From Isoetes taiwanensis (Eukaryota; Streptophyta; Lycopodiopsida; Isoetales; Isoetaceae), in NCBI GenBank assembly GCA_021234155.1, contig JAJEKV010000101.1:2337089-2401088 (forward strand): a DNA stretch of 64,000 bases, written 5' to 3'. Shown here piece after piece: positions 15,801 to 61,014 of the stretch (positions are counted from its first letter, which is position 1; each line of letters opens with the position of its first letter). The notes beneath the pieces are model-generated. The model was given only the letters and a program-made list of their open reading frames with translations. It made no database searches and was not told where the DNA came from. The position numbers and the translations under genes were made by a program.

Positions 15801-18800
15801 CAGTAGCCTCTGGTTGTTTTGGTTCCTCCTCTTTGTCAATACAAATATCATCCTCATTTCCTATCTGACAAAATGTGAAATATTTAAAGTAATTAGAATA
15901 CAAAGAGATTATAATATACCACAGACAATATGTTGCCTAATTCAGAATTGCCGTGGTGCACCGCCATTGCAGTTCTTGCATGTCATCTCAAAGATACAAT
16001 GCACTGATAAGCATTGCTAGGACGCTATCCACGCTATCTTATATGCATTTATTCATGTGATTGTGACTACGAAAAGCACGCAAAGAAGTTTGCATCCGCC
16101 ATCTATCCTTCAAACCCATGTTGATATTTGAGAATTAGTCTTACAAAATGGCATTACACACCCCCAGTAGCTACAAGTAATATGCTCTTTTTACTTCCTT
16201 TCCTTCCCTATATTAAATATGGTCCTGGATGTAACAGCTCTGATTGAATCGAACCCAATAGCTGAGATTTATAATTTAACTGCTGATTCTAATGCGTTAT
16301 TAGAAGCCGAGCTAAGAGAGTAGCATAAATTCTACAAAAGTAAACATACCAAAGCAGCTTGTGCTTTCAGGTCCTCCAAATCGAAATTCCAGCTACTTAC
16401 TGCTCTTTTGTATTCTTTCTGCATCAAGTAAGATGTCATAAAACTATATCACAGAGCGATAAATGCCTAAATTATAGTAGTGATTGTTCACCTGAGACAT
16501 CTCTTCTTGTTCTCCAAAAGGCATCTTTTTTTGAGCTAACCTGGCAGCATCCGTCAGCTGAATGCAAACGTACAAGCTATTAATAAGTGGAAAGATTCCT
16601 TGGCACTAACCATATCCAACTGTTAATTCACCTTCAAGTTCTTCACACGTTCCCACAAGGGAGGAAGTCCAATTAGTACATTCGGGCTAAATACTCTCCA
16701 GACTTTGCACCCTTAAAAAAGAATGCTTCAAAAGCTTGTCTGCAGTTGGTCTTTTTTGGGGATCCTTAACGAGGCACATTGCAATCATCTCCTTGAAAGA
16801 CTGCACCATAGGATAGGATACCAATATTTACGGCTGAAGTAAAAGCTTTAGCATAAAGACCTTTCAATGAAATAACAGAATATGCTGATTATTCGTCTCA
16901 TTTGCTTGATCATTTTTTTTTGGAGCGGTCTGAATGCTTGACAGTATTAATTTATTTAATTGAAAGCGCCTGGACCTTAGCAAAGAAGATAGCTATTTCG
17001 TGCATGCAGTAGCATACCTTGGAAAAACGCTTATCCCTCTCATAGTCAAGTCCAGGAGGTGCGTTCTGCAATGTCATTAACAAAACCTAGAAAGAAACAG
17101 CAATGATGTTGTCTTTATCATTCTTTTCAATATTAAATACAAGGATAATAGATACCTTCATGGGAGGGTACTTTGAAAATGGAGCATGTCCGTGAGCTAG
17201 CTCAAGAGCAGTGATTCCAAACGACCAAATATCAGCTCTACAAAATAATAGATACAGGTGTTAACCCCACATATGAAAGCCACAAAACAAGCCCTTTGCA
17301 AAAAAAAAAAAAGGGAAAAAAAAAAAAAAAAGGCAAGGTATACAGAAGAGGCACAAAGAACCCAGAAACTACAGAAACCACAAACAAAGAGAATAGAGAA
17401 AGGCCCCATACTTGAAATCATAGCCATGGAGTTGTTCCATAACCTCAGGTGCCATCCTAAAGGCAATGCAAAAGCAAGTAAGGACCATATAAAACTTCAA
17501 AACATGCTCAGGAGAAGAATAACTTGCAAGAACATGGGAAAGCTAAAAAGGTAAGCACCAGCAAGGAGTTCCCACAAAAGTTATCCTTGCACGCTGCCTA
17601 TCACCAGTGTCAAACAAACAAGCTGAGACACCAAAATCCCCCAGTTTTACTGCACCATTGGCATCAATAAGAATGTTACCAGCCTGTGAACATTTTGGAA
17701 TGGTTTAGATTAACAAACCAAAACAAGGTCCTCAAATGTTTGAAAACAAAATGCTCACCTTGACATCCCGATGAATGTGACCATGACGATGCAGATAATC
17801 AAGAGCCTTCAGTACTTCCTTCAAGACTGTTGCAATGACAGCCTCCTCAAAACCATCAGGGAAAGCAGACTTCATGATATGTAAACATGAGCCCCCAGCC
17901 ATGTAGGGCATGACAACCCAAAGACTGTGTTCAACCACAAAAGAGCAATACGCTCTCACTACATTCGGATGGTTAATGAGGCACATCATTTGAGCTTCCC
18001 GACGTATTTCATCCTGAAGTGCATTACTTTTGTTTACTATATAATTGTATCGTATACATACCTTACTCGGATAAAAGAAAAACAAGTAGGAAAAAAAAAG
18101 GTTGGGATGACAGCTTTAAATCATTGATGCTTCTAATTGCCCATATGTTATGAACAATTCTGTTCAACTTTGCAAGCTCAAAGAGAATGGGAGCCTTTTG
18201 AAAGCAATGCTATTTAATAAAAGAGGATAACTAGTTTTGTCAGTAATCTTATGGCTTAAGATTAGTATTCAATTTGCATGACTGCTCAATTAAAGGTCCA
18301 ATGCCTTATGTTTGTTTATACTACAAATGTAGTCTACAACTGTGTTCCTACAATGTTTCTATACTGGACCAATATCAAGAAAAAACAACAAGGACAGAAG
18401 AATTATGGCTGGTAGTCAGTCCATGGTAGTGAGAATGATAAAGAGATTACTTATCACAACAAACTCCCTATGAAGCAATACTATAAGCAAAGCACTTCAA
18501 GATTTTGCTCCTGTCAAACAAGGCTTTTTGCACTCTGTAGTCCAATTTCGAAATAAGTTTACCGATCGCCACCATCATTCCAAAGACTCTCATGGTACAT
18601 ATGCATGTTAAATTTGGCGTGCATGTAGGTCAAATTATCAAACCTAATCTTGTCCGCTTTTGGGAATATGGATTATCAATGCAGAAAATTATTTATCCAG
18701 ACAATCATGCCTAAAATGCTCGTTACCATGCTCTGCCCTAACTGACATCATTAACCACTGAATTTTAAACAGAGAAACCATAAAATTACGGTCCTATAGT

Positions 18801-43399: not shown

Positions 43400-44190
43400 C
43401 CTTATCCAATCAATTTGTTGCAAGCATGGTTATTATATAGTACGCTGAAAGTCTAGACAAAGCATCTGCAACGACATTTGTACTGCCCATTTTATAATTG
43501 ATCTGGAAATCATATTCTTGAAGAAACTCCATCCACCTGTGTTGTCTCAAATTCAAATTAGGGCGTTCCATAAAGTATGCAAGACTAGCATTATCAATAT
43601 GCAGTTCAAAATGATTCCCTAAAAGATAATGTCTCCAAGCTCTAAGTGCATATACAATTGCCAACAATTCTTTATCATGAGTGGGGTAATTTCGTTTGGC
43701 ATCATTCAGTTTATGAGAATATATGCACATACATGCTTGTCTTGCATCAACACAGACCCCGTCCCTTCTCCACTAGCATCTGTCATAACCTGGTATACCT
43801 TACTTGGATCTACCACTTTTAAAACTCGAGCATTTATTAACTTCTCTTTTAAATTTTTGAAAGCTCTCTCCCATTGCTCCTTCATTGAAAAGATATATTT
43901 GATATTGTAAGCATTGTCAAAGGACTTGCAATCATAGAAAATCTTTTGATAAATTTCTTATAGCACCCTGCAAGCCCTAAGAATGAACACACTCATTTTG
44001 GGTTTTTAGGAACTGGCCATTCTCTCACAGCGTCAACCTTTTTAGGGTCAGGTTTATTTCCATCTGCTGAAACAATATGACCTAAATAATCCATTTCTGT
44101 GCTACAAAATGAACCTTGAGTTTCTTAGCACACAATATTTTTCTTTTCAAAATACTCAAAACAGTTCCCAGATGTTCTTTATGCTCTTCC
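43400..44190 (-). pseudogene. Ty3/gypsy pol remnant: RT end and RNase H
   Basis: Minus sense: TEMDYLGHIVSADGNKPDP and VREWPVPKNPK at the end of the RT (44100-43995), then FLGLAGCYKKFIKRFS, then RNase H with SHKLNDAKRNYPTHDKELLA, RHYLLGNHFELHIDNASL and TNVVADALSR. Stops and frame changes separate the blocks. No integrase or LTR was found alongside, so this is a fragment of an old element. Confidence 0.9.
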
Positions 44191-45545: not shown

Positions 45546-45591
45546 AAAGGTGCGTTTTTATTGTTGCATAATATAAAGTGGCATTTCGGGG

Positions 45592-46563
45592 ATGCAACAA
45601 TCACATGAATCTGCTACTAGTGGGCCAAACCGTGGCTTGCTGTCGCTTTACCTTCCAAATCCCAACAATGGGTATATGGAAGGCGCACAGCGCCATAGAA
45701 TTACTGATGGAACAGTTCTCTCCCTTATAGCAGCACTCACTGAGAGAGATGCAGCAATTAGTGAAAAAAATACTGCCCTATCTGAGAAGAAGGCAGCCAT
45801 CTCTGAGAGAGATACTGTTGTTATCCAGAGAGACGTTGCCATTGCTGAGAAAGAAGCAGCTTTGATTGAAAGGGATCAAGCTTTAAGTGCTCTGAAAGCT
45901 TTCTTAGCAGATCGAGAATCTTGTGCCACCTGTAATACGGGAGGAATTCCAAGTGTACCTGATATTATTGAAGGGCAAAAACTGCTTCAGCTAAGAGTTA
46001 ACGGCAGAATAACAGATGGTTCTCCATCTTCCTCTGCACCATCTTCCTTTAACCTAACTGAAGATATTGGAAAGGGCAACAAAGCAAAGCGCTCCAGGAA
46101 GAACAAAAATTTTTCAACATCAACACATAAGATAGAAGGTACTGCTGTAAAGAAACAGAAGATGCTGCAACAAACAGATCAACAGAATGGATCTGCTTCA
46201 AAAGTTCTTAATGTTGTTTCTATACAAGAGCGCAAGAGCAGCCAAAGGCTTGGTAGCTCACTTTATAATACAACAGGTTTTCCTATCCCGTATTGTTCTT
46301 GCACTGGCATTAATCAGCAATGCTACAGGTGGGGCAATGGTGGCTGGCAATCTGCATGCTGCACTAATCAGACCTCCATGTATCCTCTACCTATGAACCC
46401 TAACAAAAAGGGTTGTCGTGTTGCTGGCCGAAAGATGAGCGCAGGTGCCTTTGAGAGGCTTTTAGAAAGACTTGCATCAGACGGCGTGGACATAAGCTGT
46501 CCTGTTGATCTGAAGACTTATTGGGCAAAGCATGGAACCAATAGATATGTCACAATAAAGTAG
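45592..46563 (+). CDS. BBR/BPC GAGA-binding transcription factor
   Basis: Nuclear DNA-binding protein recognising GA/CT repeats; single coding exon, 323 residues. Residues 51-106 are eight back-to-back heptads ([21 protein letters not shown] and so on), the alanine-zipper-like dimerisation coil of the family. A basic stretch [13 protein letters not shown] (161-173) is a likely nuclear localisation signal. The C-terminal domain holds the five invariant cysteines (235, 237, 244, 256, 257) in [19 protein letters not shown] plus SACC, then [28 protein letters not shown] and [13 protein letters not shown] at the end. Length and domain order match group I members. The GINQQC motif and linker differ from flowering-plant members I know. 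The reading frame is intact. Confidence 0.96.
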
Positions 46564-48073
46564 AAAGCAGCACTGGTTGCAATTGCATTTCCAATCAGTT
46601 GTATCTAGTTATTGGTATCAGTTCAAATGGTTCTAATTTATGGTGACAATGATTATGGCTTAAGCAGTAGCCCAAGCAAAGGATGTATGGGTGAAGCAGT
46701 ATCTTTTGCTGCCATGTCATGGAGTATGACTTTGTAAGTGCTTTTGGGCCTGTCCTGGGATATTCAGTTAAACCCCTCTACTTTAACACCCTCATTTTAT
46801 GTTAAGGGTGTTTGTTTTCCAAAAGCTTTATAACCATCTAGCATTAGTAGAAGAATGCATGCATATGACTAGTTTCTTTGTGTAAATAATAGCTGTGTCT
46901 ATTATACTATTAGCAGAAGATAATAAGATGTTACGGTTATGCAGAAGATGCAGCCTAATCAGGTTATAAGGCGATGTTTTTAGTCTTAGTTGGCATTGTA
47001 TAAAAATCCTGCTTCTGACTTTTAAAGTATATTGGGAGCTTTGAAATGGTGTACATGGGAGCTTAAGAGCAGATGTCATATAATATGAAAATGAAATTTT
47101 GCTTGTGCTTGTGGTAGATCAAGCTGAGGCTTGTGAGGTTCAATCCCGCCTCCACATGGATCATATCCGAAGGCAGTTGAACCTCAACGAACATACCATG
47201 TTCAGTTTGATGCAAAGGATCTGCATTATTTACCAAATAGGTGCAGGGATCACCTTCAATAGGTGTGGCATAAGGTGGCTAGGGATTTCAATGTTCGCTG
47301 TAAAAACACGTAACCTCTTGAGACAAATTACGAAACAAAAATGCGCAGGACATAAAGAAACGTAAAAACCAGGTGCCAAGCATTCTGCCCTGAGTTCCAA
47401 TTAAAGCTTGACACGTGGCTGCTATTCTGCCCTGAATTCCAATCAAAGCTTGAAACGTGGCTAGTATTCAATCCCGGAATGTGGTGTATTTTATTTAGGG
47501 CCAGATTCCATTATCGGCAACGGCACTTGGGAGCAAAATCTCAACTGCGGCTTCCTTCTGTGACCTAAGATAGGCGATGATTCCACTCACGGCAGCGACA
47601 ATTAGTTCAAGAATTTAAAAAAATCAGACTTGGCGAAAATCTACGCATTTGCTCTATACTTGGCAGGAATATAGCCCACGGCGATTATCATAATCTGAAA
47701 GTTATGGCATTGCTCCCCTGATAGTTAACTGAGTGTTTTGCAATGAGATGTGAGAGTTTTTAGTTTTGAGGGCAACATTTTGCTAACTGCTAACTGCGGT
47801 AGTGGAATCATCGTCGAAGCTTCAAATCTGAGATGCCATCAAAGGATTGGTGTTCAGTTAATTGACATGCACATAACTGTGCCAATGGATGCTCAGCCTT
47901 AGTTATTTACTTCAAATTCAAATATTTATCCACCAAATTGTTCCACGTAAAAAAAATCAGTTATTTACTCCAGTCCAGATTATTCACTTTTATTCCACAA
48001 AATATTATTATTGTTTTGAAGCTTTCACAGATCCATAGCAAATACTATTATGTTGTATCAGACAAAGTTCATA
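46564..48073. other. BPC 3' region and spacer
   Basis: The BPC 3' UTR probably ends within the first few hundred bases. Further on is a tandem ~50-bp duplication (47380-47465, core attctgccctganttccaatnaaagcttga). No gene supported. Confidence 0.5.
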
Positions 48074-50023
48074 CTAAATCTTAGGATGGACATGAAAAAC
48101 ACAATTGTTATTCACTTGTTGCTGTCGTCGCGCGAGGAGGAACTTTTCCAATGAATCCCAATGAAAATTGAGGAACTCATCATCTGCCCGCATTATATCC
48201 ATATCCTTCTTATTAGCTTTAATGAGAGCAGCACCTATACTTCCTTGAGTAGATCCCATAACCTAAACACTTGCATTTACCTGTAATATTTTCAACTGAA
48301 TTTAATAAGCAAAAATGTACTAATTAATTTGCTATAAAGTGCAATTACCTCAATAGGTGGCTGAATTGTTTTTGGGTCAACATTATCAGCAGTTAGAATT
48401 GACATTCCAGGTGAATCAATGTGCTGAAGACGGCCAAATTCCTTCAACTCATCCTTGTAGACCTCTTCAAACATTCTTCTAGATCCGTCAGCATTAAAAG
48501 GCCTACCAGCAATATCCATTGCAGTTTTCACTTGTAATTCAACAGTCTTTAACGTACCTACAACGAATTGTGAACGCAACTTAAATATCTAATCACTAAA
48601 AAATGCAGATAAAATACCTGCTAAATGCCTCGCGGTCCTGTGTCTTGTAACCTTCATACCAACAGATGTAGGCACGCCAGCTCTAGACATTCTAAAGACC
48701 GACATAGTTCGACCACTCTTACCACCAAATGTCCCACTCACGCCAATAAGAGCCAACATGTATTTCATCTCTGATAGTTTTCTGCCATTGACCCTGTGTT
48801 TCACATTATATCAGGCCTGTAAATAAAGATCAGATGTGAGAATAAAACTAGAATATAACAAACAAAAATCAGAACACAACAAACTTACATTTTTGTGAGG
48901 ATTTACAATAGCCTGCTTGAAAACCCAATTACTTTCCATACCAACCTGTCTGGATAATGCCTTATATATTGTTTGAATGTCAAAACAACATCCTCTTCAT
49001 AGCAACGAAGCGACATTCGAAAAGACTCTTCCGGATAGCGATCCACACTTACATCGTAAGACAATCTTTCACTATATTCTACAAATTCTCTCCCATTTTC
49101 ACTAGCCACAATAAAATTTGAAAGTTTGACAAGCTCTAGCTCCTCTTGGCCTCTAATTCCAAATCTAGAAACACAATAATATGAAATGCGCTTCTGCAAA
49201 CCTTTGGGATGATGAATTTGATGATCTACATCAAGTAGGAAAGCTTGTTCAATGCTAAAACCAGCTTCATCGACCTTCTTCATTTTCTTTCAAACTCCTG
49301 GCATCATTCTAGATCGATGCATTGCTGCTACATGCCAATCTAGACCTCTTGAGGATAGGGGAATACTTAATGTCGAAAGGAATCTGCTCTATCCTTGTAT
49401 TAGCCACAATGATTTCTTGGCAACGCCTAACAATACATCCAAATCTGCAGAACATATCTTGAAGCCTGCATTAGGCAGAAAATAATGAGAGGATAGAACA
49501 AAAATTCAGAATATTACCTAGAAAAAACATGTCTATAAGTTGCTTACGATTCAGACGGATAAAAACTGCCATCTAATTTAGCAACCTGAATCATGAATCC
49601 AACATCCCGGCTAAATCCTTTGAATCCAAATCCTCAATCTAACATGTTCCTTCATTCATCAAATTGCTCACAATGTTTTTTCCCTCAGATTTACTAATTC
49701 CACCAGTATTAATCTCCTTCTTCAAATTTTCGCCTATCTCAACAAAAGGAACTCCAGAATAATTTTTAGAATCTGTATGGGAAAGAATTTCATAATGGAA
49801 GTTATTGTAAGTGCCATTTTTGCAAGCTGCTTCCACAAACAACGTTATCTGTTCATCTCCAAACTTAGCCACTAAAGTTTGCTCGAAATCTTCATCTGCC
49901 TTGTGTAGATTTGTAATATCACCTAAAACAGGGCTAGATGCACCTATGCTACAATGCAGGTTGAAACTAGGTACGACATCCATGCCTGCACATCTTCAAG
50001 ACACATGCACAGCTCTGCTATAA
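48074..50023 (-). pseudogene. Crypton-like (DUF3504-type) tyrosine recombinase, intron-containing, broken
   Basis: Exon blocks, 5' to 3': about 49650-49548, 49465-48889, 48816-48618, 48557-48349, 48262-48074, all but the first with good splice borders. The first two join as VAKLDGSFYPSES / LQDMFCRFGCIVRRCQE, the SAM-like core-binding pattern of Crypton recombinases. Next comes SYYCVSRFGIRGQEELELVK (their G-x-R-G-x-x-E block). The third exon gives SGTFGGKSGRTMSV then RAGVPTSVGMKVTRHRT, matching the catalytic box II Arg and the T-x-H-R histidine region; the usual NHS is GKS here. No tyrosine lies where the nucleophile is expected after HLAG. Breaks: TAG after SSNASI, frameshifts near 49.28 and 48.95 kb, and a TGA at the start of exon 3. 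The upstream frame 49983-49639 is open but of unknown nature. The last two exons lack known domains. Confidence 0.65.
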
Positions 50024-50959
50024 CTTATTTCTTAAAAAAAAACAAAGATAGATCTTGAAAATATTTCGTATGCTTATCAAGAACACTGATATCTCCAATG
50101 ATTCTCTCAAGGGATACTAAAAATAACAAATCTCACGGATCTTTTGCAACTAGAGTAGAGTAGTTTCAAAAACAGCAGCAAGAATCAACATCAATGGTAG
50201 CCAGTAATGTAGCTAAACTCAGCACTCTTTCCTAAATCACATCGACGATTATAAAATGACTCCTAGTGCCATCTCCATCGGCCCAGAGCTCTCGCTTTGG
50301 TCTGAACGGGAAGAAAAGAATGAATAGAGAGCAAAAAGTCCTTTTGTAGCTAGTACACGCGTCGCAGAATGATTGGTCCCTAGTTTCCACGTTACAAAAA
50401 TGTTGCTTACATTCTAGCATGTCAACCATGCCTCCATGCTCTGCACGTTGGCATGGTTTCCATGCCAAAATGTTGCCTAAAACAACATTCTTGTATACCT
50501 AAGCTAGTATGCTTACTGTTACCGTTGCCGAATTTGTCAAAAGAGCGAGGAAAGATTAGGTCAAGACTCCTTATATTTAATAATAGAATAGAATCGAATA
50601 GAAAATTTTAATATCCACGCGGACAATGATGATGAGCTGCCAATTCATGTGTGAGGAGTATAGGTTTTCCACAGGTTGGATGTTTAATACGTTTAAGTGG
50701 ATAATCTCGACAGTTAGGATGGTTTAAGCCTTTATTTTTTAGTTAGATTGAGCTCAGTTGCAACTAATTAAGATTATCTACTCCATTCGAGGGCGCAATA
50801 TACAATTGACTGAGACGATGGGTGGGCATCTTAGGATCTCCGCTCAACATGTTTCAAAGTTTCAACTCTGCTTGATGTCCTCCCTCTTGAGACAGCACCT
50901 CTAGCAGGATAAATGTTTTGTAGACTTGGCAGAAGTTGTGCTCTATGTAGCATATGCTA
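50024..50959. other. Spacer with LINE tail
   Basis: No gene supported. Contains the short LINE tail annotated separately. Confidence 0.5.
50581..50626 (-). mobile_element. LINE 3' tail remnant
   Basis: Minus sense gtccgcgtggatattaaaat followed by ttctattcgattctattcta. Same terminus and pentamer tail as the other LINE copies, with almost no body attached. Confidence 0.55.
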
Positions 50960-51059
50960 CTAGACAAGCGTGCAGTTAAACCACAAGCATGGGATGCTGA
51001 ATTTGAATGCCACAACTGTCTATCCTCCGGCCTGAGCATGTCACAAGCAATAGAGATTC

Positions 51060-51257
51060 TTCATCGTCTCAGTCAAGCAGAATGATCCGTTGGAGCAGCT
51101 TGCAAGGCAATATGGCAATTGTTGGTGTAACCGATGCAAAGGCAATAATAGAAGAATGTACACCACGAGACAAGAACACAAAAGGAAGTATGGTTTGATG
51201 AGAAATGCCCCACCTCCATGTGAGTCTGAATTGAAAGCACGTCAAGGAGCAAACGAG
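51060..51257 (+). pseudogene. CACTA-associated N-terminal zinc motif exon
   Basis: The frame reads LEQLARQYGNCWCNRCKGNN then RQEHKRKYGLM, a C-x-C-x-x-C...H arrangement like the N-terminal region of plant CACTA TNP proteins. It ends at a canonical donor, ACGAG/GTAAGA (51257/51258). It lies upstream of the TNP2 region on the same strand, separated from it by the nested copia. Confidence 0.5.
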
Positions 51258-51394
51258 GTAAGAATTCACATTTTGCAATTTTATTATTTGTTTCATAGCA
51301 ATATATATAATCTACATCTACAAGACTTTGACTTGTTGTAGTATTTGGACATGCTTGACAAAAATCTTGGACATGCCAATTCAATAGGTAATAT

Positions 51395-51532
51395 ATGTCT
51401 TCAAGTTCTAGTTCTAGTTCAAGACCAGGAGAGGCCCAAGAAGTTAAGAGAGGTCGCACAAGGGGAAGTACAGTGGCTATGATAGTTAAGAGCCATTTTA
51501 AGAAAAACGCGCATGACCTTACCCATGTGTGA
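51395..51532 (+). other. Short Ser-rich ORF upstream of SET-like ORF
   Basis: The frame opens with an eight-Ser run, then RPGEAQEVKRGRTRGS and KSHFKKNAHD, and ends at TGA. It may be an exon or accessory peptide of the CACTA element. No domain recognised. Confidence 0.3.
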
Positions 51533-51658
51533 AAGTGAAAATGACATGGTTGATCAACTCCCTCATCATCTCAAAGCCTCTATTGCCCCATTTCGGGCAT
51601 CCTTGTAGAATATATTCATGTTATCATTATGGTATTGCGGTTTGGAGATGTCATGACC

Positions 51659-52201
51659 TAGACAAATAATTCATACAGATTGTTAAAGCTTTGAAGAAGT
51701 TATGATGATGAATTATTGGGGTTACGACCTTAAGAGTTATATGAAATAAGGTTAAAACAAGGGGAAGTGAATTTTAGAGTTAAATACTCTTATGGGATAA
51801 TTCGTCAAGGGGGAAGAGTTATTCAAATTGGAAACTTGCCAGTTCTAGCAAGCAGGAGATCGATCGGCCCGCCTTGGCGGCCGGATCTCGATCTGTAAAT
51901 ACAGAAGAAGGATTTAATGTTTGTATCGATTGTATGCAGGTGTATTGAAGGTATATTTCAGCCGGATTGCAAACGTGCTTGGGCTCTCGAAGATATGGTC
52001 AACCCTGCTACAGTGTTTAAGTCAATACCATTGCTACAGTGTTTTCTACTGTAGCAACTTAATGGTTAAGGCAATATTTCATGTATAAAGACATCATAAC
52101 CGTTGAATTATTGCATGATTGATTTGGAGTCTTGTGTTCATAAGAATTCAATAGCAATTTGAATTGCCTAGATCAAATAGCCCATAGCATTGTTTTCTTC
52201 A
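51659..52201 (+). repeat. 5' LTR of copia
   Basis: Direct repeat of 55407-55926, ending in TTCA just before the primer site. The visible start is tagacaaataattc, not TG. Since the 3' copy may have lost its first bases with the internal deletion, the true 5' edge could lie slightly further left. Contains a dyad, cggcccgccttggcggccgg. Confidence 0.9.
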
Positions 52202-52202
52202 T

Positions 52203-52214
52203 TGGTATCAGAGC
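52203..52214 (+). promoter_or_regulatory. Primer binding site of copia
   Basis: TGGTATCAGAGC, complementary to the initiator Met tRNA 3' end, one base after the LTR. Confidence 0.95.
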
Positions 52215-52224
52215 CAAGTTAAAC

Positions 52225-53757
52225 ATGGCAAGTAGGTTTGGTGCTAATCTACTTAATGCTATAGAAGTGTTTAAAGGAGAGAGTGGCTTTCAGATCTGGA
52301 AGCAAAGTATTAGAGAGATTTTGGAATTTGAAAAATTATGGTACTTGGTTGAGCCAAGCACAAGCAGACGTCATGAAGGTACTAATGTTGTCTTAGTAAC
52401 AGCTAGTACAGGGGGAGCTAGCTCCAGCTCGGATGGAGAAAGTTCAGTAGCTGGTGGAGATGCAGGAGTTACTGAAGGGGGTAATAATACTGCACAAGTA
52501 TTGTCAGCAACCAGTACAGGAGTGGATGAGCAACTCAAAATCATGGAGGCACAAGCAATCATTTGCTGTAAGGTTGGTCCAGTAATTAAGCTAAAATTGA
52601 GAGGGTTAAGTCCTAGAGAGATGTGGCAATATATGATCAATAATTATGAAGCTAAAACTTCTTCACAAATAGATGTTTTAGAAAAGCAACTAAGGAAGCT
52701 GAAGCTATATGATAGGGAGAACATAACTGAATTTCTTGAGAAATTTGACTCAATAATAGCAGACTTGGAAGGAGCTGGTGTTATTTTAAATGAGCAGTAC
52801 CAATTGGTCGCCATTTCTAGAGCAGTTGCTCATAATGCGTACCTTGCTACCTTGGTGAGAAACATTGCAAAAACAAAGGAACATGCTATTCAAATCATAA
52901 GGACAGAATTTGAGCAAAAGCAAATAGGACAGGAGGATGATGAGCAGACCACAGAAGTTTTGTATGCTGGAAAATATAAGGGAAAGAAAAACAGCAATAA
53001 TAATAATAAGGAGAGGATTGGGCCATGCTACAATTGCAACAATGGACACTTGAAGGCTGACTGTCCTAAATTGAGAAAAGATACAGTTTGCTATAATTAT
53101 GAGGGGAAAGGCCACATTGCATCGAATTGTTCAAGCCCTAGGGGTCCGAACTATAAAGGAAGGGGCAGAGGTAAGGGAAATAGAGGGGGCTTTGCTGCCA
53201 GGGGAAGGGGTACACCAAAGACTAATCCATCCTTGAACTTAGCTCAAGAGACACGAGGGGTTGAAGATGAACAAAATGAAGATGATGAGGTAAAATATCC
53301 TGAACTATGTCACTTGTCAAATGATGCAAAAAACCATGATATGCTGATTTTAGATTCAGGAGCTGAGAGGACAGTAACTCCGTCCACACAATTGCTCAAG
53401 AACTGCAATAGAGTCAAAGGGGGACATGTGCAATTGGGAAATGGAGTGTTACAAGAAATTAAGGATACAGGGATGCTAGAACTTTTGGATTTAGAGGGAA
53501 AAGCTGTCAAATTAGGAGAAGTGCTTTGTGTACCAGGGTTAGTCAGGAACTTGATTTCTGTGTGCCAATTAGTAGACCTTGGCTATAAAGTTTTGTTTGA
53601 AAAATTGCAGTGTAAGGTGTTTCAAGACAATAAATTAAAGTTTGTTGGCAAGAGAGTTGGAAATTTATTTGGTTTAAATTCTGATCATCTTGTTCAAAGT
53701 GTAAATTTGGTGACTTGCTCAGATATTAAATTGTGGCATGAAAGACCGTTGAGCTTT
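52225..53757 (+). pseudogene. Copia gag-protease-preintegrase polyprotein part
   Basis: ATG 52225 is preferred over the earlier in-frame ATG because it lies just past the primer site. Gag begins MASRFGANLLNAIEVFKGES with the UBN2-type GFQIWKQSI. Two zinc knuckles follow: CYNCNNGHLKADC is intact, but CYNYEGKGHIASNC has lost its second Cys. Protease has LDSGAERTV. The frame then breaks in the pre-integrase zinc region (LWHER) at a stop, and coding continues in other frames. It would make virus-like-particle and processing functions, but cannot do so intact. Confidence 0.9.
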
Positions 53758-54169
53758 TAATTAAAAAGGGACTAGTTGAGGCATCAAAAATTAAAAATGA
53801 AAAGTTTAAGTGTGCAGGATGCATTCTGGGCAAACATACAAGGCTTCCTTTCAAAAATCCTTAAAAAGAGCAAAAGGTGTGTTAGACCTAATCCACTCTG
53901 ATCTATGTGGACCACTGAATGTGACAAGTCTTGCAGGGAAGAGATATTTTATAACTTTTGTAGACGATTATAGTAGAATGGCCAAGGTGTATTGCTTAAA
54001 TACTAAGGATCGGGCTTTGCAAGCTTTTAAGAAATTTGTAAATGAAGTGGAATTGGAAACTGGAAGGAAAATCAGGTGCTTACGGACAGATAGAGGAGGG
54101 GAATATTTATCACATGAATTTAAGCACTACTGCAATGAACTTGGCATCAAAAGGCAAGGAGAATTATAA
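53758..54169 (+). pseudogene. Copia integrase fragment
   Basis: CAGCILGKHTRLPF (zinc-binding end) is followed, after a frame change, by HSDLCGPLNVTSLAGKRYFI and VDDYSR (first Asp), and LRTDRGGEYLS (second Asp). The catalytic Glu and the whole C-terminal domain are missing. The sequence jumps directly to the linker before RT. Confidence 0.9.
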
Positions 54170-54401
54170 TAAGTAGGGATGTATTATTTGATGAGGATCA
54201 ATTTTATAAGGTACTGCCAAGAATTAATAGCCCTGCAGATATGTCTGAATGCAAGGTTAATAAAAAGGTACATTTCAAAGGGGATCTGAACCAACCTGTT
54301 ATGCTGACAGATACAGGTGATGAAGAGGACATAAGAGTTGAACAAACATTACCTGATGCTGATGCAAATGTACAGCAGAAAAGGAAGTAAGTATTGAACA
54401 C

Positions 54402-55406
54402 ATGTTACCTAATATTAATATTGATTCTGGAAGTGTGCAGCAAGAAGAGCCAGCTCAGCAACAGGTCAATAAACAAGTAGGCCCTACCAGGAGAAAGAAA
54501 AGGACTGAAGCTCAGATCATTAAAGATGAAGGTATAGCCAATCATGAAAGGTTTGGAAGGGATGAACTAGGCAAAAGCAAGAGGCTCAAAGAAAATGAAG
54601 GTGAGATTCTTGGCTTGTTTGAAATACTAATGCATCTAGATGTTTCAGTTCCAAAAACATATGAAGAAGCAGTTATCTCAACTAATAGAAAAGAATGGTT
54701 GAAAGCAATGCAAGGAGAAATGAATTCATTCAACAGAACAGGTACATATGAGCTGGTAGATACACCAAATGGCAAAAACATTGTGGGATGTAAATGGTTA
54801 TATAAATTAAAAATAGAGGCAGATGGTAAAACTCCAAAGTTTAAGGCTCGATTGGTGGCCCAAGGTTTCTCACAGAAATGTGGCCAGGATTATGAAGAAA
54901 CTTTTTCACCTCTTGTAAAAATGAATAGCATAAGAATGCTTTTGGCCATTGCCAATGCATCAAACTTGGAGATACATCACATGGATGTAAACACTGCATT
55001 TTTGAATGCAAAGTTTGAGGAGGACATTTATATGAGACAGCCAAAAGGTTTTGAAATAGGAACTGGGAAAGTCTGGAAGTTAAAAAGGGCTGTGTATGGT
55101 TTGAAGTAGTCTCCAAGGGAGTGGTACAAGTGTATAGACTCCTATCTCAGAGAACAAGGCTTTGATAAATTTCAGAATGATGGCAACCTTTATAAATACA
55201 AAGCTGGAGACGAATGGTGTATAATTGCCCTTTATGTTGATGATAATTTGATGGTCTCAAATGGTGTTAAAGCATTAGATCATTGCAAGAAGGTTCTGAA
55301 TAACAAGTTTAAGATGTCAGACTTAGGGGAACTAAGAAAATTTCTGGGAATTGAGGTGCACAGGAATAGGTTTAGTAAAACCTTGATACTCACTCAAAGA
55401 AGTCTT
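54402..55406 (+). pseudogene. Copia reverse transcriptase fragment
   Basis: RT motifs in order: EWLKAMQGEMNSF, GCKWLYKLKIEADG, KARLVAQGFSQKCGQDYEET, HMDVNTAFLNAK (catalytic Asp), AVYGLK followed by an in-frame TAG, and YVDDNLMVS (YVDD). The frame ends at RSL where the 3' LTR begins, so RNase H is absent. Confidence 0.93.
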
Positions 55407-55926
55407 TAGACAAATAATTCATACAGATTGCTAAAGCTTTGAAGAAGTTATGATGATGAATTATTGGGGTTAAGACCTTAAGGTTATATGAAATAAGGTC
55501 AAAACAAGGGGAAGTGAATTTTAGAGTTAAATACTCTTATGGGATAATTCGTCAAGGGGAAAAAGTTATTCAAATTGGAAACTTGCCAGTTCTAGCAAGC
55601 AGGAGATCGATCGGCCCGCCTTGGCGGCCGGATCTCGATCTGTAAATACAGAAGAAGGATTTAATGTTTGTATCGATTGTATGCAGGTGTATTGAAGGTA
55701 TATTTCAGCCGGATTGCAGACGTGCTTGGGCTCTCGAAGATATGGTCAACCCTGCTACAGTGTTTAAGTCAATACCATTGCTACAATGTTTTCTACCGTA
55801 GCAACTTAATGGTTAAGGCAATATTTCATGTATAAAGACATCATAATCATGGAGTCTTGTGTTCATAAGAATTCAATAGCAATTTGAATTGCCTAGATCA
55901 AATAGCCTATAGCATTGTTTTCTTCA
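55407..55926 (+). repeat. 3' LTR of copia
   Basis: Matches the 5' LTR apart from substitutions and a loss of about 30 bases near 55847. Its last bases, ttttcttca, abut the SET-like frame. Confidence 0.92.
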
Positions 55927-56743
55927 ATCCTTAGGTTGTTGGGAAGGAGAACTACCTCCAATGTTAAAAGAGTTTATATATTGGGGCCATAAGTACATGA
56001 TAGCTCCTTCTCTAAAAGTTCCACAGGCTGGAAGGGGGTTGTACGTAATGGAGCATGTGAATGTACCATCTGGACACTCCACTATATTGATGGTATATGG
56101 CGGTCTCACGTACCCTTGGGGAGTGTGGCATACACTTACTTCTTTTATGCCTAGTATATCTAGGTATGCCATGACATTGAATGCAGCATCTTGGAGTGAG
56201 CACAGAGATCGCGGAGAACATACTTCATGGGGCGCACTGGTATATATTAATGGTTGACCAACGGTTCACGGCAATATTGCTGCACTTATAAACAGCCCTG
56301 AATTAACAAATGCTGAGTTCGAAGAGACTACGGAATATGATCCACGGTACATGAGTGGATATGTTGGATCATATGTGAGGGTTTGTGCAATACGAAGCCT
56401 CCGTCCTGGAGATGAGTTATTTGAGAATTATCCGTTCAAAAGAGATATCCTAGACGGGTGCAATGCCAAAAAAATGGTGAACCTATTGTTGTACCCTATG
56501 GTAGAAAACGTCATACAAATGGATAACCATGTAATATTGGGATCCAAGATCATTGTTGATGCACTACAAGACTTATGTCCTTTTCTATAATATTGGGAAT
56601 TATGAACTTTTAAAGGTTTTAAAGTTTGGCATTTACGTCTAATAATAATTAGAATCTATAAACATTTATTGTTGGATGTCCATTCTTCAACTTGTTTTTC
56701 CATTTTATTTTAATTCATTTACCAACAAATGTGTTCTTTGCAG

Positions 56744-59700
56744 TCAAGTGATGATGATGTCTTATCTACTCAAGGTGATTTCCACGCGGAGAGTGGTTTG
56801 ATGGAAGCCATTCAAAATTACTTCCCATCCACTAGTGATGTAAACGTCAATAATGAAGAAGAGAGGCCGGTCACACTTCTTGAGAGAGAGAGTAGAAAAC
56901 CACTATATCCAAATGCAAGAATATCACGTCTTGCTGCATGCATTCTCGTCCTCAACTTACAACACAAATCCGGTTGGAGTAACAATAGTGTTGATGAACT
57001 TCTTGGGTGGGTGATTTAAGATTTAAAATTATACAAGTTTCTATTGCATTCTATTCTTTATTTTCCTTCCTTGCTTACTCACACTTTTATCTTGTTTGAT
57101 AGTTTGCTAGGTGAGTATTTACTTTCAAGTGATCATTGTCTTCCAAAATCACGAAGGGACGTCAAACAACTTTTGCAAGAACTAGGTTTTGAATACAATT
57201 GTATTCATGCATGCATAAATGATTGCATATTATTCCGCAATGAATATAGTGACATGACTAGATGTCCTAAGTGCAGTGAATCATGGTATGATGAAAAAAC
57301 AAAGTCCAAAGTGCCAAAGAAAGTTTTGCGGACCCAATTACAAGTCATGTTCAAATGTCCCTCCCTAGCATCATTCATGGACTTCCATGCAAAACACCAA
57401 AGCAATGATGGGATTTTGAGGTATCCAACCGATGGTGAGGCTTTAAAACATAGAGAAGACAAATGGCCACATTTTAAGGATGAACCAGGAATGCTCGGCT
57501 TGCTTTGGGCATGGATGGAATATGTCCATTTGGAACGATGTCATCTACTCATAGGGTCTGGCCCATTGTTGTTATAAACTATAACATACCACATTGGATG
57601 GCAACTAAGGTAGGTCATTTAATGCTCACACTTATAGTTCCAGGTACATACCTTTACATAGCCTTGCAATGTATTTTTATGTAGATTTGTTGCTTGCTAA
57701 TTTAATGCAATTTCACTTCTTAGGCAAATATCAAGTCAAGGATATGAATGTATACAACCACACAATTTCACATTCCATGGAATATTATGCTTCACAATTC
57801 ATGGCTATCCTGGATTTAAAGTTGCATCGGGTATGATGCTCGTGCTCACCATATTTGTTTGTGCGAGATCTCCACTACAAGGTCCAATTGGGCGTTTACT
57901 TTTTTTGCAGGATTGCAAACTAGTGGATCATGTGGGTGTCCATCTTGCGGCCAAAACTTAACATCTTATAGATCACCACACTTGTCAAAGATGATATACA
58001 TTGGACATCAAAAGTATCTACCACTAGGTCATCAGCTTCGTTGTGGTGATTTATCAGATGTTCCGATTAGAAGAACTCCACATGATTGGTTGAAAACATG
58101 GAATGATCATGACCCAGAAAGGGGTAAACATCCCCCTGGCATGAAGATGCTATCTATATTTTACACATTGGACTATTGGTCTGAGCTAAAGATTGCACAT
58201 CTCTTAGATCCTATGCACATTTTCAAAAATGTGAGCCATTCACTTTGGCGACATCTTACGGGAGATTGGGAGACTCTAAAAGCTAGGAATGATTTAAAAG
58301 ACAAAGGCATCAAAAGAGAGTTGTGGCCAATTGAAGAAGAGGGTAGAGCTCCTCGCTTTCTTCGAGGTCCTTGGGTATTAAAGAGGGATGAACTCAAACA
58401 AGTAAAAGAAGCTATCAAAAGTTTGTGCACTCCGACTGGCTATGGATCCTCACTTAGAAGGGCATTTACAAAAGATGGAGATCTCACAGGCTTAAAGTCG
58501 CATGATTGGCACAAGTTTCTACAGGTACATATAAGTATAATAACTAAAGAAGCATGACCAATGGACTAATTGGATGAAGCTCACCAATAAATTGCTTACA
58601 ATATCTTCAAACTTGTAAATCTATATGATAGTGACACCTAATTTGGATTCCTTATTATAACAACATATTCTCCCATGTGCCTTAGAGAATTGCTTCACAC
58701 CACACATTCGGAAGGTCATCTATAGACTCGTAAGCTTCTCTAGGTGGGTCTCTTCCAAGCAAATTGTAGCTCCTGATATCCCCGCTATGGAAATAGAGAT
58801 TGCAGAGATATTATGCCAATTAGAAGATCTATTTCCCACCAGTATATTTGATCTTCAGGTATAATGTAATTATTTAAATAAATTTCATGTACCAATCATA
58901 CCTAACAAATGTTATTCTTAGGTACATTTGTTGGTGCATTTGCCGCAAGAAATATTGCTCGTGGGTCCAAACCCTTCAAGATGGATGTTCTTTTTAGAGA
59001 GATATATGAAAGTATTAAAAGGCTTTGTGCGTCAGATGGCAAGGTCTGAGGGATGTATGGCAGAAGGACATCTTACTGAGGAGACATTATTCTTCTTGAC
59101 AGACGCCACTATGTCAATAGATCCAAATGCACCAAAGATTTGGAAGAAAGAGGCTCCTGATTGGAGAGGGTGAAGTCTTGCAGGGTCTAGGTAAACAAAG
59201 GAGGTTAAGCGATGAAATGTTTGAAGGTATCAACAAGTTTGTTGTGAACAATACAGATAGCCTTAAGAGGTGGGTGGAGTTGTATAAAATTGAGAAGGCA
59301 CAAAGAGATAGCAATAGAAAGCATATGCTGCAAGGAACCGTCGAGGACATCATAAAAGAGCCATACAATACCCTCGAGAACTAATGCCTCTACCTGATTC
59401 TCCACCCCATTGGTGGTTGTCACAAAAGCTTAGAGAAGCTGAAGAAAATGGAGAAAAAATTCAAGAAGATGACCTCAACATTGCATTTGGTTCTGAAAAA
59501 TCGGCAAGTTTCTATTTGTTGTTGTCAATATGTATTTTGCATTTGCTAACCATTACATATCTAACCAATATGCAGGCTAGGTTTCATAATTCAATGTGGG
59601 CATATGGTGCACACTTTCGAATTGATGACATTGACAAGGCTCGCATCACTTTTGATTCTGGAATCATAGCCTCGTTTAATCAAAAGAGTCAAGCAAGTAC

Positions 59701-60382
59701 TAGAGATGATAATCCTATTGATGGAGAACTTGAATATGTTGGGGTCATTACCGATATCAATGATGTGGATTTTCGATCATTTCGACAAACCGTACTAAAG
59801 GCCAAGTGATTCAAACCTTTATATCGTGGACGAAACCAAACAGTGCGACCACATCCTTTTGGATTTTTTGAAGTTGACTCCACGCATGTCTTAGTCGACA
59901 GAAGCGAGCCATATGTGTATCCACATCAGGTTCAACAAGTTTTCTTTCATGTCAACCCTCAAAACAATGCGTGGTGGATTGTAATTCCCACGGAACCAAT
60001 GTCACGTAGATATATTTGCAACACGACTATCGAGGAAGAAGGGCAAGAGGAGCAAGAAGAAGAGGTAGAGCATGAACAAATAATGGAGTTTGTGGAGCCA
60101 ATAAAAATAGAAGAATATGAAGCTCAAGGGGGAACGAGCAATCAAGGATTGAGAGTCACGATGCATATCAATGGAGATGACACCGAGGAGGAAGTTGAAG
60201 AGGGAAGAAACAATCAAAAAGGGAGATCACCGATGAATTTCGTTGAAGATTATATTGAGGAGGAAGATATTGAGCTCCAAACTCCAAATGAACGACGAAG
60301 ACTACCCTTACAACTAGATGATGATGAATGGGAGGACATTGAGCATGATTTTGTGGACGAAGGTTTAATGTCTGGTGAATAA
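56744..60382 (+). pseudogene. CACTA (En/Spm) TNP2-type transposase
   Basis: Exons visible: 56744-57006, 57103 to about 57640, about 57722-57830, 57911-58524, 58686-58858, 58922 to about 59500, and 59576-60382. TNP2 core: WSNNSVDELL / LLGEYLLSSDHCLPKSRRD, NDCILFRNEY, CPKCSESWY, WPIVVINYNIPHWMATK, SGLQTSGSCGCPSC, LDPMHIFKNVSHSLW. DUF4218: VHLLVHLPQEI then WMFFLERYMKVLKGFVRQMA. DUF4216: ELEYVGVITDINDVDFRSF and VQQVFFHVNPQNNAWWIVIP. The acidic tail ends LQLDDDEWEDIEHDF. Family role: binding and cutting CACTA ends in the nucleus. Breaks: one-base shifts near 57.49, 59.12 and 59.38 kb and a TGA after VLKAK where Trp is usual. One intron has a GC-type donor (TCG/GCAAGT, near 59503). Confidence 0.92.
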
Positions 60383-61014
60383 GAAACAAACTTTTATCTT
60401 ATATTGAGTTCAAGTATGACGTAATGCATTTTGATGATTTAAAATACTAATCTATTCCCCATATATAATGGTTTTCCTTTGATTAAAATAGTGCGTTATT
60501 TCTTATCTTTCCATTAAAGTTTTGTGTCGTTTACCTTCAGAGCTTGAACTTTGCTAAATTGGATATGTAAGATCATCAAGAGTTTCAAAATTACTACCTT
60601 AGCATTCGATTATGATGGTTCTTGTGTATTTATCAAAAGCATTCACTAATTATATTTGGTTGCTTTGGCAGATGTAAAGACTTTGAGAATGCTTCAAATA
60701 TTAAACCAGTTAACTAATGCTTGCCCCATCACGTTGTACATACATGGCAAACTCCATGTCTCCGGGATGTCTCCATAGTCACTTTGAAAGATGTAAAGAT
60801 TTTGAGAATGCTTCAAACAATAAGCCGACTGACCAATGCTTGCAATGACATCGCATTGTATGCACATAAGGAACTCAATGTCTTCATAGATGCCACATTG
60901 TATTCCCCCTAGTGAACTCTAACAAGACTATAAAAATTTCCAAGTTTACACTATAAACATAAGCGGATAGATTCTTAAGTGTCCCATAAGAGCATAAGTA
61001 CGAAGTGTACAAAT
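60383..61014. repeat. Spacer with ~120-bp tandem duplication
   Basis: gatgtaaagattttgagaat followed by a diverged 100 bases occurs near 60672 and 60790. No CACTA terminus for the upstream transposase was found here. Confidence 0.6.

Follow-up and report, generated by a model that had tools for sequence, protein, structure and literature searches.

Introduction

Cryptons have been listed from animals, fungi and stramenopiles, and the accompanying tree has one Chlamydomonas entry under plants, the nature of which is unstated in the text (Kojima and Jurka, 2011; PMC3212892). As described in the text of that paper, no terminal repeats were found in animal Cryptons, and most CryptonS and CryptonF elements carry 5-6 bp terminal direct repeats, with CryptonF having a GCR1_C domain. 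In a plant transposable element atlas, one table column counts 535 entries as 'Crypton' and gives no further detail (PMC8729191). The word 'Crypton' is absent from the main text of the two Isoetes genome papers (PMC8566536 among them). Our literature search, which lay outside subscription journals and Repbase reports, where an earlier entry is possible, found no described land-plant Crypton family and no paper joining Crypton with Isoetes.

Here we describe an element in a stretch of 64,000 nucleotides of the genome of the quillwort Isoetes taiwanensis (hereafter the window). Very probably the feature is the decayed remnant of a DNA transposon present in many copies, and the one gene of this transposon, which is spliced, codes for a tyrosine recombinase of the Crypton/DUF3504 type with the catalytic set R, K, KxxR, H or Q, and Y. 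We conclude that the family is a land-plant Crypton lineage that is spliced, recently mobile and equipped with unusual ends.

A decayed recombinase gene in the window

An earlier, sequence-only reading of this DNA had placed a Crypton-type relic at 48074..50023. A gene of that type does lie there, and the peptide blocks quoted for it are all found on the minus strand in the order given, but the true feature is larger and runs from 50498 to 47360. The introns that had been claimed can be placed in the window copy as four GT-AG introns (inferred from sequence), and the 'two extra C-terminal exons' are genuine parts of the gene, matched in 16 of 20 fetched copies. The N-terminal part (matches starting before residue 117) is likewise matched by 16/20. 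The element and its gene are laid out as follows.

47360..50498, minus strand: whole Crypton-like element copy, 3,139 bp, start GTATACAAGAATG (50498), end TTTTTACGT (47360)
49548..49983, minus strand: exon 1, N-terminal part and core-binding block DGSFYP; ATG at 49983 assumed
49466..49547, minus strand: intron 1, 82 bp, GT-AG, inferred; the relative L017 has the same donor context
48889..49465, minus strand: exon 2, LQDMF..., FGIRG (catalytic Arg 49154-49152) and the GREFVEYSER hairpin
48817..48888, minus strand: intron 2, 72 bp, GT-AG, inferred
48618..48816, minus strand: exon 3, K-S-G-R (Lys 48720-48718, Arg 48711-48709), RAGVP and RHRT (His 48642-48640); stop at 48813
48558..48617, minus strand: intron 3, 60 bp, GT-AG, inferred
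48349..48557, minus strand: exon 4, opening with the nucleophile Tyr codon (TAC 48556-48554), then KTVELQVKTAMD
48281..48348, minus strand: intron 4, 68 bp, GT-AG, inferred
48076..48280, minus strand: exon 5, C-terminal part, with an in-frame stop at 48265 and the last stop at 48076

With the four inferred introns in place, the gene still contains at least seven breaks. Exon 1 is disrupted by one stop and one frame change, and the hairpin Lys has been deleted from the GREFVEYSER segment of exon 2. The window copy is dead, which is one of the two states (dead or altered) that the earlier reading had considered. Intron 2 is missing in several relatives such as L017, where the reading continues straight through.

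To place the gene among recombinases we used an animal profile made from the 120 listed DUF3504 database proteins of 651 hits, seeded with a protein sequence that Pfam places in PF12012 (DUF3504, E 8e-43). Among 1,598 six-frame ORFs of the window (at least 25 aa), the ORF carrying FGIRG (48906-49289, minus strand) was the best match at E 4.9e-4, the next being at E 4.8, and its 15.6 bits compare with at most 9.6 bits for the top ORF of any of 60 dinucleotide-shuffled windows. When the DNA of both strands was aligned with tolerance for frameshifts and introns, the best place was 49217-48637 on the minus strand, with 45.1 bits against 26.9 for the next and a maximum of 32.3 in a control of 12 shuffled windows, one strand each. 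Stiffer penalties lowered the score of the same alignment to 32.5 bits (next, 21.0; shuffled maximum, 25.4 in 20 windows). Taken singly, the core-binding, FGIRG and KSGR blocks had their scores reached by 3, 0 and 3 of 2,000 shuffles, respectively; the core-binding block had been joined by hand to the start of exon 2, and a run in the wrong frame gave 124/2,000. The FGIRG block of exon 2 scored 20.3 bits and was matched by hhalign at E 2.8e-5 (probability 74%).

A profile of 11 relatives from the same genome aligned with the animal DUF3504/Crypton profile over 234 columns (hhalign, 97.8%, E 9.8e-13), a match that reaches the Tyr region and whose final columns read into an intron. This result, together with the at least 150 genome matches described below, supports the plant Crypton-like family that the sequence-only reading had proposed. 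One outcome counts against that reading by the letter of its own refutation test: curated Pfam models gave no recombinase hit for the window blocks or the joined protein, and ORFs of relatives gave DUF3504 at E 0.002-0.05 in 5/8 cases and Phage_integrase at E 0.0017 in 1/8, all below the curated cut-offs and accompanied by weak unrelated Pfam hits. An unrelated plant gene family was rejected as the identity of the blocks.

Other searches of sequence collections were negative. Searches of public protein databases found no homologue of the joined window protein (0/7,655 candidates at E <= 0.001) or of the exon-2 ORF (0/4 candidates), and searches of viral and prokaryotic contigs and of PHROGs gave nothing. 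Among solved structures, the window ORFs had no match and the plant profile found no recombinase by sequence at E 10. A single-sequence fold of the window copy was poor (pLDDT 57.5). A model made with 22 animal sequences reached 66.1, and its top seven Foldseek hits were Cre or variants of Cre, but at E 0.27-0.47 and from an input alignment that favors such an answer.

The neighborhood of the element holds several other features. An open single-exon BBR/BPC gene (GAGA_bind, E 4e-77) lies at 45580-46560, with some 800 bp between it and the 3′ end of the element, and is in keeping with a land-plant genome. On the other side, a Copia LTR element at 51659-55926 (LTRs 51659-52201 and 55407-55926, 93.7% identical; gag and RVT_2 present) seems to be nested in a CACTA-like element of about 51000-60400, which has Transposase_21 at 57820-58554 and a sub-threshold DUF4216 at 59810-60379. 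Farther away on the minus strand are a fragment of a protein kinase gene at 17735-18115 (Pkinase, E 7.6e-19) and an RT RNase H fragment, probably Gypsy-type, at 43413-43772 (RT_RNaseH, E 2.1e-24).

A multi-copy family in the quillwort genome

The exon-2 ORF was searched against 1,658,258,908 bases of the genome in 1,110 contigs. At least 150 of 1,318 candidates were scored as matches, each with E <= 6e-23 and 44-100% identity; these 150 include the window itself (in the first row) and its segmental copy. In 111 of the 150 the matched part contains no stop (counted by eye). The eight of 20 fetched copies that have both ends measure 3,039-3,640 bp, and the recombinase gene, the only gene seen, makes up most of each 3.0-3.6 kb element. 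Pfam scans of the exons and of ORFs near the window copy revealed no other transposase or reverse transcriptase.

The nearest relative, L009 (G000:C346), is 98% identical to the window copy over 2.6 kb. This stretch includes 353 bp of flanking DNA common to both, so L009 arose by later segmental duplication rather than by an insertion of its own. The relatives L017 and L019, by comparison, are 96.9% identical over 3.35 kb and sit in unrelated flanks, which points to recent movement. Nine relatives (L040-L048) form a distant branch with 30-47% identity in the blocks; they read ICNKSG and mostly GHK or GHN, and are probably a second lineage of the family.

Two further protein features were considered and set aside. 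A C-terminal GG-F motif common with animal Cryptons scored above all 2,000 shuffles in L017 but not in L022, where 1,036/2,000 shuffles were as good, and it was dropped as evidence because L022 fails this control. GCR1_C is absent from the scanned exons; a hit to this domain near 51.1 kb (E 0.064, in one of ten scanned ORFs) lies outside the element and was taken as chance.

Catalytic residues

Residues were counted in 40 relatives (L009-L048), with roles assigned by aligning the animal profile with XerA and QRICH1 and by general knowledge of the fold. The first catalytic Arg and the hairpin Lys are each kept in 39/40, the latter being the residue lost from the window copy. Where the R-H-R-Y tetrad calls for H-x-x-R, the family reads K-x-x-R: both Arg residues and the Tyr of the tetrad are kept, and the His is Lys in 33/36 covered relatives, with the Arg of this motif present in 32/36. 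At the next His position, the 31 covered relatives have Gln (15), His (14), Arg (1) or a gap (1).

An exon that begins with Tyr (R|YDK or similar) was found in 36/40 relatives. Alignment accounts for 32 of these (32/32 covered), a count that leans towards Tyr because local alignment drops a mismatched end, and the other four come from rereading five uncovered copies in all frames, which gave RYDK or RYDR in L016, L026, L047 and L048 and not in L028. The Tyr exon was not found in L010, L028, L039 and L041, of which only L028 was reread in this way. L017 illustrates the junction, with AACAG|GT...CAG|GTATGACAAG yielding N-R-Y-D-K, and the exon of L009 reads YVKT. The sequence-only reading had seen no nucleophilic Tyr. 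Its codon is in fact present in the window copy after intron 3, out of frame both with the HRTAR block before it and with the block that follows, and it escaped notice because the frame changes before and after its exon.

Recombinase activity of the family is assumed here, given Lys for the His of H-x-x-R and Gln in about half of the copies at the next position. Loss of the Tyr and of the second Arg, the hallmark of a domesticated gene, is not the pattern in these relatives (Tyr exon in 36/40, Arg in 32/36 covered).

Hairpin head and inverted repeats at the ends

The ends of the element were examined in 12 pairwise comparisons of copies. On the right, the match stops just after TTTACGT in 11; on the left, it stops at GTATA in 5 and inside the element in the other 7. 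For the window copy, the 5′ end was set by searching the genome at the DNA level (match at C910:2387525-2387586, E 6.4e-7), and the 3′ end by an inverted repeat that pairs with sequence beginning at an inner ACGT. These parts of the ends are located as follows.

50393..50498, minus strand: 5′ head, a hairpin (inverted repeat) up to the inner ACGT, from the single-stranded DNA fold
50364..50392, minus strand: second inverted repeat, left copy (ACGTGGAAACTAGGG...), pairing with the 3′ end at offset 0, 23/29
47360..47388, minus strand: second inverted repeat, right copy, at the 3′ end, same pairing

The pairing at ACGT places the window element at 50498-47360. Its 3′ end is the weaker-supported of the two, since the inverted repeat scores barely above shuffles (28, against a maximum of 26 in 200). 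A candidate 3′ end at 47945 is a chance TTTACGT without an inverted repeat, and 47360 was taken instead.

The architecture recurs in the family. The first ~110 bases fold back on themselves. In 12 copies, bases 4-30 agree with their best inverted partner at 14-26 of 27 positions, the low values of 14-16 (L016, L021 and the window) being little higher than a best-of-many search might yield by itself. As single-stranded DNA, the window head (50388-50498) has a predicted energy of -29.2 kcal/mol (z -7.3). Among four heads folded, three are at -47 to -58 kcal/mol, z ranges from -7.3 to -16.9, and 0/200 shuffles were as stable as any of the four, the window included; unpaired dinucleotides fall at the same places in three of the four folds. 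The inner ACGT stands at the foot of the hairpin, and the inverted repeat that comes after it, 20-60 bp long, pairs with the 3′ end of the element. The pairing starts exactly at ACGT in 8/9 elements and nine bases in for L015. Across the eight both-ended copies, the two ends have no more than GT (ACGT at most) in common, and terminal direct repeats of 5-6 bp are not present.

Additional heads (L049-L068) show hairpins followed by differing second repeats (ACGTGGAAACAAGGG..., ACGTGAAGTTAACC...). Some of these may be short non-autonomous derivatives, as heads lie on contigs such as C992 and C68, which have no protein match among the matches listed.

The combination of inverted repeats with an internal version of the end joint is reminiscent of DIRS elements, which are present in Viridiplantae according to the text of PMC4157794, and the feature might be part of a DIRS-like or other tyrosine recombinase retrotransposon. 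However, the eight both-ended copies are just 3.0-3.6 kb and mostly filled by the gene, and ten Pfam-scanned ORFs around the window copy include no reverse transcriptase. Furthermore, as stated in the text of PMC3212892, DIRS/Ngaro recombinases have no DUF3504 match even at E 100, whereas the family here does match; DIRS elements are compared by description. A retrotransposon origin is very unlikely.

Insertion sites

One might suppose a cut-and-paste TIR transposon that is mobilized by some other enzyme and simply carries the recombinase along, and an inverted repeat of 20-60 bp would agree with that. Yet this repeat starts 107-136 bp inside the 5′ terminus, and the extreme ends are without an inverted repeat, the outermost 20 bp matching their inverse at only 5-8 of 20 positions in the eight copies with both ends. 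A target duplication of 3-11 bp is absent in all eight of these copies, and the catalytic Tyr is conserved. That a foreign transposase moved these elements is very unlikely.

An empty site was sought for one copy, L018. Its joined flanks lie in a repeat, and in 37 of the best 40 of 223 candidates the match extends 14 bases or more to the left of the junction; one of the remaining three is the right side of the filled site itself. Five of five chosen paralogous sites are unbroken through GGTTAC-GT-TTGTGAGG, with no gap within 20 bases, one of them reading GGTTAA; the left flank is common over only ~27 bases, where the repeat begins. These unbroken sites indicate that L018, the copy to which the empty-site evidence applies, entered at GT without target duplication.

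A sequence preference is visible before the GT core and reads TTTNY. In 18 further heads (of 20 fetched), the left flank has T at -4 in 14, T at -3 in 16 and T or C at -1 in all 18; L059 and L061 share flanks, such that at most 17 heads are independent. An earlier set of 12 left flanks is in agreement, with 3.1/6 matches to CTTTAC against 1.7, and 2.25 at the best other offset. The likeness of the right flanks to the 5′ end of the element is modest (4.9/13 against 3.3 with sd 0.43, and 4.7 at the best other offset; n=13). On its right side, the L019 element adjoins another palindromic unit with a like end (GTTACAAGAATGGC...GCCATTCCTGTATACGT), as if the ends of related elements acted as targets.

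These sites also bear on whether the family might consist of host genes derived from an ancient Crypton, as are KCTD1, ZMYM and QRICH1, and spread by gene or segmental duplication, in which case the window copy would be a pseudogene. Introns and a long C-terminal part are what such a gene might have, and L009 did arise by segmental duplication along with its flank. Other pairs, however, end at the ends of the element in unrelated flanks, of 55 genome matches to the 5′ end, 32 begin at its first base, at many places (hand count), and L018 has empty sites. In addition, the R, K, R and Y residues are kept, as opposed to the loss of Tyr and the second Arg that the text of PMC3212892 describes for animal DUF3504 genes. 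A domesticated host family is very unlikely.

A possible path of movement

To our knowledge, the path by which Cryptons move has so far been mostly inferred. For the quillwort family, we propose that the element would leave, or be copied out, as a circle. Its joined ends (...TTTAC-GT + GT-ATACARGAATG...) would recreate a site composed of the 3′ repeat, ACGT and the head arm. The recombinase might then cut beside the GT core via a 3′-phosphotyrosine bond, and strand exchange could follow with a chromosomal site loosely like the circle joint. An inverted version of this joint also occurs within the element, where the hairpin head has its foot. This hairpin could be used as a double strand, as a folded single strand or as a mere pair of binding sites.

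Integron attC sites present a long imperfect hairpin beside the recombination point. The quillwort head is likewise a long imperfect hairpin adjoining the presumed recombination point, and by this analogy the recombinase might use the 5′ head in single-stranded, folded form, much as attC is used by integron integrases, an idea we think unlikely. If true, it would reveal a eukaryotic transposon with structure-specific site recognition. The quillwort hairpin differs from attC in being eukaryotic, ~110 bp long and part of the element's own end, and its fold is a predicted one.

More generally, a lycophyte family with at least 150 matches and recent members places a mobile tyrosine recombinase in vascular plants, and its defined ends, core and empty sites make the path of Crypton movement testable.

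Comparison with known systems

Among solved structures, the animal DUF3504 profile is closest to QRICH1 (9hjt) and XerA (5hxy), at E 3e-18 and 0.28, and XerA marks the HxxR, GH and Y positions in the alignment of that profile. The CryptonS elements of stramenopiles and the CryptonF elements of fungi are likewise recombinase-only DNA elements inserted at a short shared core. Judged by their descriptions, the quillwort family is set apart from both in that its ends share GT, at best ACGT, and its gene has no GCR1_C. The literature searched describes no hairpin head for the Crypton class.

Animal CryptonA/DUF3504 elements (PF12012) share the catalytic domain as far as the Tyr region and, here as there, the recombinase is the only gene seen. 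In contrast with CryptonA, the quillwort family has K-x-x-R for H-x-x-R and a long C-terminal part, its window copy has four inferred introns, and its elements are bounded by a hairpin head and an inverted repeat.
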